Assembly: GCF_022758295.1 (NCBI RefSeq) | Contig: NZ_JALDWJ010000009.1 | Location: 1 to 64,000 of the forward strand | From: Lysobacter sp. CFH 32150 | GTDB taxonomy: Bacteria > Pseudomonadota > Gammaproteobacteria > Xanthomonadales > Xanthomonadaceae | Reading direction: 5' to 3' | DNA length: 64,000 bases | Shown here: one piece after another, positions 57,669 to 62,660 of the stretch | Position numbering within the stretch: position 1 is the stretch's first letter | How the letters are laid out: each line of letters starts with the position of its first letter | Position numbers and translations under genes: made by a program | The notes under the pieces: model-generated | What the model saw: only the letters and a program-made list of their open reading frames with translations | What the model was told of the DNA's origin: nothing | The model's database searches: none

Positions 57669-60350
57669 CTAGTGGACCAGCAATCCCAGGAGCCGGGCGC
57701 GATCTACGGCATGTTTCCGGGTGCCTGCAGCGAGTTTGAGAAACAGGTTCTTGATGTGCCACTTCACCGTTTCGTCGCTGATCTCCATCGCGCGTGCGAT
57801 CAGCTTGTTCGACATGCCCTTGTCGAGCAGGATGAGGACTTCGGTTTCCTTGGTCGTCAGCAGGCCACTGCGGGAAGCGGCCGCTCTTTCGGGTAGCGCC
57901 GAATAGGGTTGCTGGCCTGGCTCGGTTTCGGTTCGCCGTGCCTTCGCATCCGCTGGCGCAGCATGCAACGCGGCGCCCATCTGCACGGCCAGCGGATGGG
58001 TATCGGCGAGCAGGCGGTCGCACCCGCGGATGGCGGCGAGGCCCACCGCCTCGGCCAGCAGCGGCATCGCGTTGTCGGCGTGGCGCCGCTGCACAACCAC
58101 CGCGCGCAAAACCCGGATCGTCAGGGCATCGCGACCCCGGTGCAGCTGGTTCGCCAGCGCGTCCGCCGCTTCCAGTTGCCGATCGCATTCGTCCAGATCG
58201 TTCCGTGCGAGTGCGGCGTAGGTCGTGGCGATCGCGCGCGTCAGTTTGTAGAGCGATTGGAACGAGGAAAACGATGTCTGGCCAAACACGTCTTCGAGTT
58301 CCGCCATCGCCTGGAGCAGGGACTCCACGGTCTCGGAACGGCCGCGTAGTGAATGCAGGCGGATCCGTTCGGCGAAACCATGCAGCATCAATCGCGGCAG
58401 CTGTCTTCGTTCGCCGAGTTCGCCGAGGCTTTCGAGGATGTTCAAGGCGCGCCGCTCGTCGCCCTGGCTGAGAGCGACATAGGCGAGCGTGCGGTAGGCA
58501 AGCAGGATGACGTCGGGAGCACCGTGCCGCTCGATGACATCAAGACGATGTGCGAGCAGGGCTTGTGCCGCCGTTGGCTGGTCGCGCTCGAGCAGAGCCG
58601 CGGCGACCATCGCGGCATACATGCTGGCGACCATGCTGCGACGGCCCGCGATCCGTTCGGCGCTGACCAGCGCCGGCCACAGCGCTGCTTCGGCACGGGA
58701 TGCTTCTCCGTCCCAGAGATGGCTGAGTCCCACGATCATGAGCCGGTGTGCGATGGGCAGTCGCAACGAATCATTGTCCACGTTCGCAGGCACTTGGCCG
58801 ATCAGCTGCCGTACGCGTTGCGTTTCGCCAGCATGCAAGGCCATGAACGCAACGCCGTTCGCATAGGCCAAGGCCTGGATCGGATCCTCGATCGATGCCG
58901 ACGGTTCCGGCCTGTAGGCGAGCCAGTCCGCGAGGATGGCCGGCATCAGCCCTAGTCGATCGCCGTAGGCGGCGGCACTGAACGCTGCTCGCGCGGCCAC
59001 GAACCGCCGTTGTGGATTCGTCGCCGGATCGAGCAGGATCGCCTGCGAAATTTCCAAGGCCTCGGCGTTGCGCTCGCCGATCGCCATGATCCAGGCACCG
59101 ACCAGGCGCAGGTCGACATCCGCCGCCACGACTTCGGGCGGGATGCGATCCAGCCATTCGCGCGCTTCCAGCAACTTGCCCTGGAGGGTCAACGTCCATA
59201 GCGCCCGCTCGGCGTAAGCGTGGGCAAGCGATTCATTACCCGACGCCAGGGCGTGGCAGGCCGCTTCGTGGAAACGTTGACGTTCGGCGAACCAGTGCGA
59301 TGCGCGAGCATGGAGTTCCTGTTGCTCGGCCATCGGCAGCTGTTCGAAGCGGCTCAGCAGGAAGTCGCGCACGAGTGGATGCAGGCGCACCCAATCCTGC
59401 AACCCCGCCACGCTCAGGATCGGCGTTTCCACCATCAATCTGGCGATGTATTGGCCTGCGGATGCATGGCCGGTGACCGCTTCGCACAAGTCGGCAGCCA
59501 GATGATCAAGGATGGCAACGCGGATCAGGAAATCGGTCATCGGCGCCGGCAGGCGGGTCAGCAACGATTCGAAGAAATAGCGTTCGATATCGCCACGTCG
59601 CGCCGAGAGTGAATCGATCGCGACTGCCAGGTCCGGTTCGCGTTCGATCGTGGCCGCCACCAGTTGCAGGCCGAGTGGCCAGCCCCCCGTGAGTTCGTGC
59701 AGTCGGGTGCATTGATCGAGGTTCAGGCGTTGCCCGAAGTGCTTCCCGAGCACCGCCGTCGACTCGTCGAGTTGCAGATGCAGGTCATCCGGACCGATGG
59801 TCGCGAAATTTCCCTTCGCGGCCAGCTCCCAGGTCTGCAGGGGCAGCGGCACCCGCGAACTCACCACGACGTGCAGGTTCGGCGGCGCGTTGTGCAGCAG
59901 GTACTGGAGCGAAGTTCGTACGGTCGCATCCGGCAATCGCTCGGCGTCATCGATCATCAGCACTGTCTCCGTGCCGAGAAAAGCGATCTCGGCCAGCAGT
60001 CCGGTCAGTGCGTCGATATCGTGATCGCTCTCCGCCGCGTATTGCGCCATCAGCGCGTCGAACGCGGGACGACCACTCGCGGAGCTCACCGCAGACAGCA
60101 GCGCCAGGGTGAACCGGGTTGGATCGTCCTGGGCATCGACACCGAGCCACGCGACCAGCGCGCCCTGTTTCAGCCAGTTGCGACGCCACTGTGCCAACAA
60201 GGTCGTCTTGCCGAAGCCTGCGGGTGCGATGACGACGATGGTTGTCCGCTCGCGGACATTGGCCCAGATCCGCTGCAGTGGTTCGCGCTCGAGCGCAGTG
60301 CGGGGTATGCGTGGCGGCGTGGTCTTGAGGATGAACTCTGGCGCGGACAT
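57669..60350 (-). CDS. LuxR-family ATP-dependent regulator (MalT-like)
   Basis: 893 residues, STAND-type. N-terminal NB-ARC-like ATPase with P-loop VVIAPAGFGKTTLL (about 39-52), Walker B ETVLMIDDAERL and sensor region, then a long helical repeat scaffold (about 330-800) and a C-terminal LuxR helix-turn-helix (about 825-885: LLTTKETEVLILLDKGMSNKLIARAMEISDETVKWHIKNL). MalT-type regulators multimerise on ATP and inducer to activate transcription. Large and alone on its strand; its nearest possible targets are the protease-lipoprotein operon it faces. Confidence 0.9.
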   Translation of the reverse strand: MSAPEFILKTTPPRIPRTALEREPLQRIWANVRERTTIVVIAPAGFGKTTLLAQWRRNWLKQGALVAWLGVDAQDDPTRFTLALLSAVSSASGRPAFDALMAQYAAESDHDIDALTGLLAEIAFLGTETVLMIDDAERLPDATVRTSLQYLLHNAPPNLHVVVSSRVPLPLQTWELAAKGNFATIGPDDLHLQLDESTAVLGKHFGQRLNLDQCTRLHELTGGWPLGLQLVAATIEREPDLAVAIDSLSARRGDIERYFFESLLTRLPAPMTDFLIRVAILDHLAADLCEAVTGHASAGQYIARLMVETPILSVAGLQDWVRLHPLVRDFLLSRFEQLPMAEQQELHARASHWFAERQRFHEAACHALASGNESLAHAYAERALWTLTLQGKLLEAREWLDRIPPEVVAADVDLRLVGAWIMAIGERNAEALEISQAILLDPATNPQRRFVAARAAFSAAAYGDRLGLMPAILADWLAYRPEPSASIEDPIQALAYANGVAFMALHAGETQRVRQLIGQVPANVDNDSLRLPIAHRLMIVGLSHLWDGEASRAEAALWPALVSAERIAGRRSMVASMYAAMVAAALLERDQPTAAQALLAHRLDVIERHGAPDVILLAYRTLAYVALSQGDERRALNILESLGELGERRQLPRLMLHGFAERIRLHSLRGRSETVESLLQAMAELEDVFGQTSFSSFQSLYKLTRAIATTYAALARNDLDECDRQLEAADALANQLHRGRDALTIRVLRAVVVQRRHADNAMPLLAEAVGLAAIRGCDRLLADTHPLAVQMGAALHAAPADAKARRTETEPGQQPYSALPERAAASRSGLLTTKETEVLILLDKGMSNKLIARAMEISDETVKWHIKNLFLKLAAGTRKHAVDRARLLGLLVH

Positions 60351-60762: not shown

Positions 60763-61575
60763 CTACTCCCGCGCTCCCATCAGCCGCCGATACTGCGACA
60801 TGTGGCGGATGGCCTGCTTCGGTTGATCCAGTTCTTCGTACAGCAGCGCGAGGTTGTAGTGGCAATCCGCAAGCTGCGGGTCGAGGCGTAGCGCCGCTTC
60901 GTACGCCTGCATGGCCTCCGGCTTGCGGTCCGCGTCGTCGAGCAGCACGCCGAGGTTGAAGAAGAGCAGGGGATCGTCGTTGCGAATCGCGATCGCGTCG
61001 CGATAGACCTGTTCGGATTCGTCGAAGCGATGCAGTTCGTGCAGGAGTCGTCCGAGATTGATGCGCGCATCCAGCCGCGACGGATCGGCGGCGATGGCGC
61101 GCTCATAGGCGCGTCGCGCCGCGTCGGTGTCCGAGCTTTCCAGCTCGATGCCTTGCAGGGTCCATGTGCCTGTTTCGACCGGCACCTGCGCCTGCTCGAT
61201 GACACGCAGGGAACCCGTGGCGGGATCGCCTTCGAACGCGAGCACGTATTGCCCGGATTCGGCATGCCAGCGGTTGCCGCCTTCGCGCACCACGACGTGA
61301 TCGGCAATCGCGCTGATGCTCAGTCCCGAGAGCGGCATCGTTTCAGGCAAACGGCTGCGCAGTTCCTTGAGCGATTTGACGATGCGGCGGTGCGGGATGT
61401 TCGCGGTTGCCAGGGACTGTGCCGTGCGCAGCACGATCAGGTCCTGGAACGAGAACAGCCACGCGTTGCGCGGGCCGCGCGCCGGCGTGACGAAACCCGC
61501 GGTGATCAGTGCGCGGATCGTGCTGCGGGGCAGGCGGAGCAGCTTTTCGACGTCGCGCACGCCGTAAGAATGCAT
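60763..61575 (-). CDS. MerR-like DNA-binding protein with TPR domain
   Basis: 270 residues. N-terminal MerR-type winged helix (about 1-72: YGVRDVEKLLRLPRSTIRALITAGFVTPARGPRNAW, FSFQDLIVLRTAQSL), a connecting beta part, and three to four TPR repeats (about 140-265: AARRAYERAIAADPSRLDAR, LLFFNLGVLLDDADRKPEA). Such proteins often lie next to ku/ligD in xanthomonads, so it may regulate or assist end joining; this is inference from position. Start ATG 61575 lies 3 bp outside the long inverted repeat. Confidence 0.82.
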   Translation of the reverse strand: MHSYGVRDVEKLLRLPRSTIRALITAGFVTPARGPRNAWLFSFQDLIVLRTAQSLATANIPHRRIVKSLKELRSRLPETMPLSGLSISAIADHVVVREGGNRWHAESGQYVLAFEGDPATGSLRVIEQAQVPVETGTWTLQGIELESSDTDAARRAYERAIAADPSRLDARINLGRLLHELHRFDESEQVYRDAIAIRNDDPLLFFNLGVLLDDADRKPEAMQAYEAALRLDPQLADCHYNLALLYEELDQPKQAIRHMSQYRRLMGARE

Positions 61576-61578
61576 GTC

Positions 61579-61770
61579 AGGGCCTGCCGATGCGCTTGCA
61601 ACAGATCACGCCGGGCATAAAGATGCCCGGCCCTCCGGGTTGCTCCTCAGTGGCTGCCCTGCGGTGCCGCGCGGCTTGGCCTTGCAGGCAGCAAGGCGCG
61701 GCGCCACGCAACACTACCTGACAGCCACTGAGAAGCAACGCGACCTGTTCCATGCGCATCGGCAGGCCCT
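61579..61770. repeat. Long inverted repeat between ku and the MerR/TPR gene
   Basis: Fills the whole 194-bp gap. Outer 17-bp arms AGGGCCTGCCGATGCGC (61579-61595) and GCGCATCGGCAGGCCCT (61754-61770) match perfectly; inner 18-bp arms (61639-61656, 61722-61739) match with one mismatch; a lesser GC-rich pair lies nearer the centre. The left arm carries an extra hairpin, CCGGGCAT-AAAG-ATGCCCGG (about 61611-61631), that the right arm lacks. The right end overlaps the ku stop codon. Confidence 0.85.
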
Positions 61771-62660
61771 TATTTCGCCCGCTTCGCGCCCTTGCGCTTG
61801 GGTGCTTCGGCCTCTTCGACTTCCAATGCCGGTACCTGTTTGGCCGGTTTGCGCGTGGCCTTGGTGGCGGCCTTGCCCTTCACCGCGCCCTTCTTCTCCA
61901 GGCTGGCGCGCAATGCCTCCATGAGGTCGATGATCTGGGCGCCGCCTTCGGGCTCCTCGGCCATCGTGATTTCCTGGCCTTCCACTTTCTGCTGCACCGC
62001 GGCTTCGACGCGCTCGGCGACGTCGTCCTTGTACTGGCTCGGATCGAAGGTGCTGCTGCTCTGCGCATCGATCAACTGCTGCGCGAGTTTCAATTCCGCC
62101 GGCTTGACGTCGGTCTTGGGGATGTCGATCTCGCTGATCGCGCGCACTTCGCTGTCGTACAGCAGCTGCTGCATGACCAGGCCGTCCTCGACCGGGCGGA
62201 TCATCACGATGTAGGACTTGCCGCGCGCGGCCCAGTGGCCGATCGCGCAGCGGCCCGATTCGCGCAACGCCTTCGCCAGCAGCGCATAGGGTTTGGCGCC
62301 GCCCTTGTCCGGGGCGAGGTAGTAGGCCTTGTCGAAGTACACCGGATCGATCGCGCTGATCGGCACGAACTCGGTGATGTCGGCGCTGTGCGTACCGGTT
62401 TCTTCGAGCGCCTTCAGTTCCTCCGGCGTGAACATCACGTACTGGTCCTTGGCGAACTCGTAGCCCTTGACCATGTCCTCGCGCGAGATCGGGATGTTCT
62501 CCCGCGCGCAGAAGTACTGCTGCTTCACCCGCGACCCGCAGGCCTTGTGCAGGAAGTTGAAGGCAATGCCGCCCTTGGACTCGGTGGCGGAATAGAGCTT
62601 GACCGGGATGGCCACCAGGCCGAATGAGACGGTCAGCGATGCGATCGAACGTGCAGCCAT
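61770..62660 (-). CDS. ku: Non-homologous end-joining protein Ku
   Basis: 296 residues. Homodimeric ring binding DNA double-strand ends and recruiting LigD. Bacterial Ku core: MAARSIASLTVSFGLVAIPVKLYSA at the N-terminus, KGYEFAKDQYVMFTPEELKAL, GKSYIVMIRPVEDGLVMQQL and PAELKLAQQLI. A Lys/Ala-rich C-terminal tail (about 255-296) is typical of the DNA-binding extension. Start 18 bp after the ligD stop, same strand, so ligD and ku are one operon. Confidence 0.95.
   Translation of the reverse strand: MAARSIASLTVSFGLVAIPVKLYSATESKGGIAFNFLHKACGSRVKQQYFCARENIPISREDMVKGYEFAKDQYVMFTPEELKALEETGTHSADITEFVPISAIDPVYFDKAYYLAPDKGGAKPYALLAKALRESGRCAIGHWAARGKSYIVMIRPVEDGLVMQQLLYDSEVRAISEIDIPKTDVKPAELKLAQQLIDAQSSSTFDPSQYKDDVAERVEAAVQQKVEGQEITMAEEPEGGAQIIDLMEALRASLEKKGAVKGKAATKATRKPAKQVPALEVEEAEAPKRKGAKRAK

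Follow-up and report, generated by a model that had tools for sequence, protein, structure and literature searches.

A repeat between ku and a MerR/TPR gene of Lysobacter sp. CFH 32150 is very probably a shortened copy of a MITE-like palindromic element from a family widespread in Xanthomonadaceae

ERIC, NEMIS (Correia) and RUP are short, dispersed and intergenic repeats of about 100–200 bp with terminal inverted repeats that form a long stem, TA termini and a target duplication, as described in the part of the source available to us (PMC2229807). The element analyzed here shares these characteristics, with a target duplication suggested at one site, but differs in its length of 267 bp and in a pair of hairpins enclosed by the terminal stem, in arms that vary between copies and yet match within a copy, and in being GC-rich, having a CTAG site and often lying on a stop codon. 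With the CIR elements of Caulobacter, it shares the build of two arms and a linker, whereas CIR elements lack a stem from end pairing in the accessible part of the same source, a comparison of descriptions and not of sequences (PMC2229807). REPINs are palindromic mobile units for which the portion of the study at hand reports compensatory stem changes and signs of excision (PMC3116915), and our element resembles them in these aspects but is much longer, has no adjacent Y1 gene that we could find, and is bordered left and right by CTAG at one site. The latter is reminiscent of IS5, which duplicates a Py-T-A-Pu target, most often CTAG, as stated in the accessible section of PMC5493358; unlike the IS5 group, the element has no identified transposase domain, and its own genome has no PF05598 gene. 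A description of the family was not found in the open-licence PMC literature as far as these texts were accessible, and in a MITE review (PMC10969869), a term search found none of the names Xanthomonas, Lysobacter and Stenotrophomonas.

The window, which is the whole analyzed stretch of 64,000 nucleotides, contains a repeat between ku and a MerR/TPR gene. We regard this repeat as very probably derived by shortening from a MITE-like mobile DNA element that is non-autonomous and targets CTAG. The features are as follows:

61579–61770, plus strand: whole element, a one-hairpin deletion derivative of 192 bp, recognized by its inverted repeat and its match to the family profile
61579–61610, plus strand: left terminal arm, 88% complementary to 61739–61770, with the outer 17 positions perfect
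61610–61631, plus strand: left-hairpin stub with a 9-bp perfect stem and a 4-nt loop, assigned by comparison with full copies
61636–61742, plus strand: complete right hairpin with the arms 61636–61675 and 61703–61742, common to other copies
61739–61770, plus strand: right terminal arm, ending on the base with which the ku stop codon begins in plus-strand coordinates
61770–62660, minus strand: ku, 296 aa, lying upstream with respect to transcription (Pfam Ku, E 2.4e-49)
60763–61575, minus strand: gene with a MerR-type HTH and TPR, 270 aa, the next gene downstream (TPR_11 E 1.1e-19, MerR_1 E 8.1e-05)

A previous sequence-only reading had described a 192-bp inverted repeat that exactly fills this gap, and this repeat is real. 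Its claim of a perfect 17-bp outer match holds for the outermost 17 positions of the 32-nt arms, and the extra hairpin (61610–61618 paired with 61623–61631, 22 nt) is indeed confined to the left half. The inner arms, which had been called almost perfect, are so for a part of the helix but not for the whole, as complementarity is 75% over 40 nt in an ungapped comparison. The coordinates at both borders agree as well: ku extends from 61770 to 62660 on the minus strand, which places its TAA stop codon at 61770–61772 with one base inside the repeat, and 3 bp separate the repeat from the start of the MerR/TPR gene at 61575. A fold far more stable than chance was also computed: as minus-strand RNA, region 61560–61790 reached −163.7 kcal/mol, whereas shuffled sequences averaged −105.11 (sd 4.95; z −11.84) and none of 200 was equally stable. 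Further downstream of the TPR gene, positions 57669–60350 encode a large LuxR-type regulator of 893 aa with an AAA domain.

The search for the element in its own and in related genomes, which the earlier reading had proposed, identified a family. Stretches with up to 90% identity to 61625–61770 are present elsewhere in the own genome, which has 3.5 Mb on 17 contigs, a full copy as query found more places there than the window part, and comparison with the consensus revealed 15 full copies of 263–287 bp among the fetched stretches, in addition to partial ones. A full copy of about 267 bp consists of terminal inverted repeats of about 31–33 bp that enclose two long hairpins. The terminal arms mostly start with AGGGCCTG. 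The left hairpin of about 95 nt contains the conserved internal-loop blocks GGCAAGGAAGAGCGAGG and GAGCGATGACGC, and a short linker joins it to the right hairpin, which has about 100 nt; one misaligned row (L136) had been removed from an alignment behind this description. The window copy has retained both arms and the right hairpin, and its left hairpin is reduced to its base, a 22-base stub; model positions 120–267 of the family profile align to window positions 61623–61770 (E 1.1e-33). Other one-hairpin copies that retain both ends exist: L285, L286 (both in genome G417) and L287 (G093) lack the left hairpin, and L288 (G093) lacks most of the right hairpin. L308 and L313 seem to have only the left hairpin according to the profile. 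At L323:3296-3705 (G085), a copy is apparently interrupted by about 155 bp lying between the hairpins.

Judged by its matches, this palindrome family of about 267 bp is widespread in Xanthomonadaceae. In a family-wide sample, 102 of 395 genomes and 33 of 54 genera gave matches at E <= 0.001, and since this number includes matches of only 25–50 nt, the stricter count at E <= 1e-10 is 69 genomes in 23 genera (counted by hand); the survey scored two candidates per genome, and copy numbers cannot be read from it. Plasmid and phage collections contained no element match, and phages and plasmids were thus rejected as carriers; two viral contigs with one common 17-mer gave nothing with the element profile at E 0.01. 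An origin of the two hairpins by inverted duplication was also rejected, as the left hairpin scores 12 against the reverse complement of the right one and shuffles score 11.5 (sd 1.7). The longest stop-free frame has a median of 88 of 89 codons over 125 copies, which is often expected in GC-rich DNA. The usual full-copy length of 267 is a multiple of three, and a stop-free frame spans most copies (for example L018:1671-1937).

The earlier reading had also considered that the repeat may mark a site related to Ku/LigD. Among 80 other ku loci (849 kb), the element profile detected no copy, and the other copies in the own genome adjoin other genes; a tie of the element to DNA repair is therefore not supported by these comparisons, and its position at ku appears incidental. 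An influence of the repeat on expression of the downstream gene is conceivable. The order of ku and then the MerR/TPR gene (window positions 60763–62660) is itself a conserved neighbourhood in several phyla, with a MerR/TPR match in 69 of the 80 ku loci, which come from named records. The gap between both genes is at most 33 bp in 51 of these 69 loci and at least 100 bp in 8, and it is 3–25 bp in three Lysobacter records and in Luteimonas gilva; the best-matching ku among the named records is that of Lysobacter sp. Root494 (87%). In L034, L061 and L104, which come from other species, gaps of 77, 145 and 153 bp hold other palindrome-like repeats, which are unrelated to the window element by profile.

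Mobility of the element is well supported by comparisons of orthologous sites that are filled, empty or in part-deleted states, and by a duplicated CTAG. In G347 and G112, 7 nt separate the matched flanks at a position that is occupied by a copy in genome G270. At the L270 site, which was compared in 20 genomes of genus g7, G006 and G306 carry a full element, G073 has a one-hairpin form, G315 has the arms alone, and 16 genomes lack the element, with the state of G286 resting on site-survey rows. When the target duplication was checked as the earlier reading had proposed, the empty sites of G253, G168 and G100 read CTAG once, and the filled ones of G006 and G306 read CTAG, element, CTAG, which was seen at this one orthologous site only. 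This would correspond to a duplication of CTAG, and a 2-bp TA duplication would fit equally well. At the L258 site, again in 20 genomes, four carry a full copy (G253, G315, G073 and G100), 10 have no trace, three are unreadable (G201, G185 and G241), and three contain a one-end remnant of 8–9 nt, which is identical in G006 and G306 and different in G168. These remnants may be excision footprints, and other deletions would look alike. Similar flanks can hold quite different elements, as at the orthologous sites L234/L295 (flanks 93/95%, elements 65.5% identical) and L399/L401 (flanks 94/92%, elements 66.3% identical), which suggests that sites may be reused. With dispersed copies, terminal inverted repeats and empty as well as filled orthologous sites, the term MITE-like element was right in kind.

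The flanks of 76 copies (of 83; copies with a low arm match or unclear ends were left out) show the tendency CTA/GGG...CCC/TAG. TA was found at the left flank in 46 and at the right flank in 43 of these copies, and the 27 copies with TA on both sides are in line with the 26.3 predicted for independent ends; direct 2-mers occurred 28 times where shuffles averaged 26.26, and these flanks gave no sign of a longer duplication. The association with stop codons was examined with full copies that have at least 300 bp on each side (n = 111, among which orthologous copies are non-independent). In 65 of the 111, the stop of the upstream gene lies within 12 nt of an element end, and in 53 a T of the host and AG of the element together form an upstream TAG stop codon, whereby single gene calls may be wrong because the codon scores were trained on only four genes of the window. 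The 58 ends at TAG stops are evenly distributed (29 left, 29 right), with both ends involved in 5 copies. As a control, stops of this kind were found at 8 of 44 CTAG sites that lie in the same loci outside the elements. The neat fit at the ku stop is, as far as these gene calls tell, a frequent behaviour of the family. The copy in the window completes TAA and not TAG. Within the window (1–64000), CTAG is scarce, with 22 sites as compared to 209.7 expected from base composition.

An unusual feature of the family is pairing without a fixed sequence. In 125 full copies, 90 well-paired positions form Watson–Crick pairs in 92.6% of cases within a copy and in 66.1% across copies, and in the variable part of the arms these values are 92.1% and 50.4%; the selection of well-paired positions works in favour of the value within copies, whereas the difference seen in the arms gains nothing from it. 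Three or four Watson–Crick types occur at 39 of the 90 pairs. Double Watson–Crick changes increase with divergence, whereas single ones reach a plateau at about 6–9 per copy pair. Orthologs with at least 94% identity (one pair per added copy, summed by hand) showed 33 single and 2 double Watson–Crick changes, and non-orthologous pairs with at least 93% identity showed about 798 and 189 (from rounded means), a contrast with a Fisher p of 0.046 for pairs that are non-independent. Eight duplicates had been removed from this comparison, and L030/L235, L234/L295, L272/L395 and L399/L401, whose elements are 62–76% alike in similar flanks, were left out as possible independent insertions; counting these four pairs would add 59 double changes. 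One ortholog pair at 92.5% has 8 single and 4 double changes. The idea that resident copies might decay uncompensated while moving copies covary has thus been weakened by more data.

Our explanation for the window repeat is that a transposase encoded elsewhere would insert the element at CTAG-like sites, thereby duplicating CTAG or its TA. Copies would gather at stop codons because insertions inside genes would be lost, with the element end restoring TAG. The matching of arms and hairpins would be kept at the DNA level and not by an RNA function, either via recognition of shape in transposition or via template-switch correction. Template switching is known to create and to mend perfect stems according to the part of PMC8794818 that was available, and compensatory changes are among the REPIN features in the corresponding part of PMC3116915. 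The window copy would have landed at the end of ku and would have had its left hairpin cut to a stub, and either event may have been the first. Several points stand against this explanation: the arm sequences vary, which is uncommon where a transposase recognizes its terminal repeats; neither a transposase nor an autonomous copy turned up in the searches described below; TA on both sides is about as frequent as independent ends would give; and most copies are crossed by a stop-free frame. One rather improbable but conceivable solution for the arms is that the element would rebuild its terminal inverted repeats each time it moves: a folded, hairpin-ended intermediate would be repaired or copied with one arm templating the other. 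The arms of each new copy would then match from the outset, regardless of their sequence, and the enzyme would read the shape and a few fixed end bases in place of a constant terminal sequence.

On this reading, a structure apparently linked to ku is a single member of a set of small mobile palindromes that have turned over recently in one bacterial family. These palindromes are unusual in having terminal repeats that are unlike between copies yet matched within them, and in frequently completing upstream stop codons. With more than 100 copies at hand, they bear on whether selection on shape or template-switch correction keeps inverted repeats matched over time. It also calls for caution, as a neat fit between two genes is no proof of function.

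A structured RNA in the ku–TPR transcript could instead set relative expression by stability, RNase III processing or attenuation, the family then being a dispersed RNA regulator, and we consider this unlikely. The fold is very stable, the internal-loop blocks of the left hairpin are conserved, and in the right hairpin (window 61636–61742), A-C mismatches exceed G-T on the plus strand (173 vs 69, in a test run without a known-RNA control), as minus-strand RNA with G-U pairs would give; a minus-strand effect is therefore possible there and is a further counterpoint to our explanation. However, G-T and A-C are nearly equal in the outer stem (81 vs 110) and in the left hairpin (83 vs 87), and plus-strand RNA is therefore not indicated. 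Of 13 tandem copies in the own genome, 10 share one orientation, but this minus-strand bias is gone over 111 copies, where the flanking genes are both on the plus strand in 39 and both on the minus strand in 33, and there is therefore no general orientation. No Rfam family reached the gathering threshold at seven loci, and the window region gave three matches to plant or animal microRNAs, all far below threshold.

The preferred reading, a mobile DNA element, raises the question of its enzyme. An IS5-like enzyme is suspected, and no more, by analogy, because IS5 mostly duplicates CTAG. No transposase or autonomous copy was found in the own genome, in 20 half-matching loci or among PF05598 genes in 10 genomes: the own genome contains no paired ends 0.7–3.5 kb apart with up to 2 mismatches, the 20 loci yielded no autonomous copy, and PF05598 is present in 5 of the 10 genomes and absent from the own one (G000). 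Genome G306 contains 11 almost identical copies (L406, L410, L412, L414–L421) of a 1210-bp IS5-group (PF05598) element. Their ends are AGGGCACCTC, and the gac/gtc-type palindromic sequence around them would suggest that one repeat is targeted. This IS5-group element was rejected as partner; its ends begin with AGGGC like those of our element, but the rest of the ends and the target differ.

It is very unlikely that the element belongs to the REPIN/RAYT system, in which a REP doublet would be moved by a Y1 transposase. Compensatory changes and single-stranded DNA hairpins have been described for REPINs in the part of PMC3116915 at hand, the own genome has three Y1_Tnp (PF01797) genes, and the end remnants at one site resemble reported REPIN excision reads. 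But none of these three genes lies within 10 kb of a listed element copy in the own genome, the element has 267 bp and two hairpins in contrast to REP doublets with a spacing of about 71 bp, and CTAG is duplicated at one site.

An intrinsic terminator between ku and the TPR gene, which the earlier reading had named as a simple alternative, is hardly credible: the one terminator-like match (minus strand, 61639–61626) equals the 1.0 expected in shuffles and involves the stub, not the long stem, which has no subsequent T run. Finally, a chance local duplication beside ku, for which we found no supporting point, can be dismissed, as homologous copies with up to 90% identity occur elsewhere in the own genome and others in further genera.
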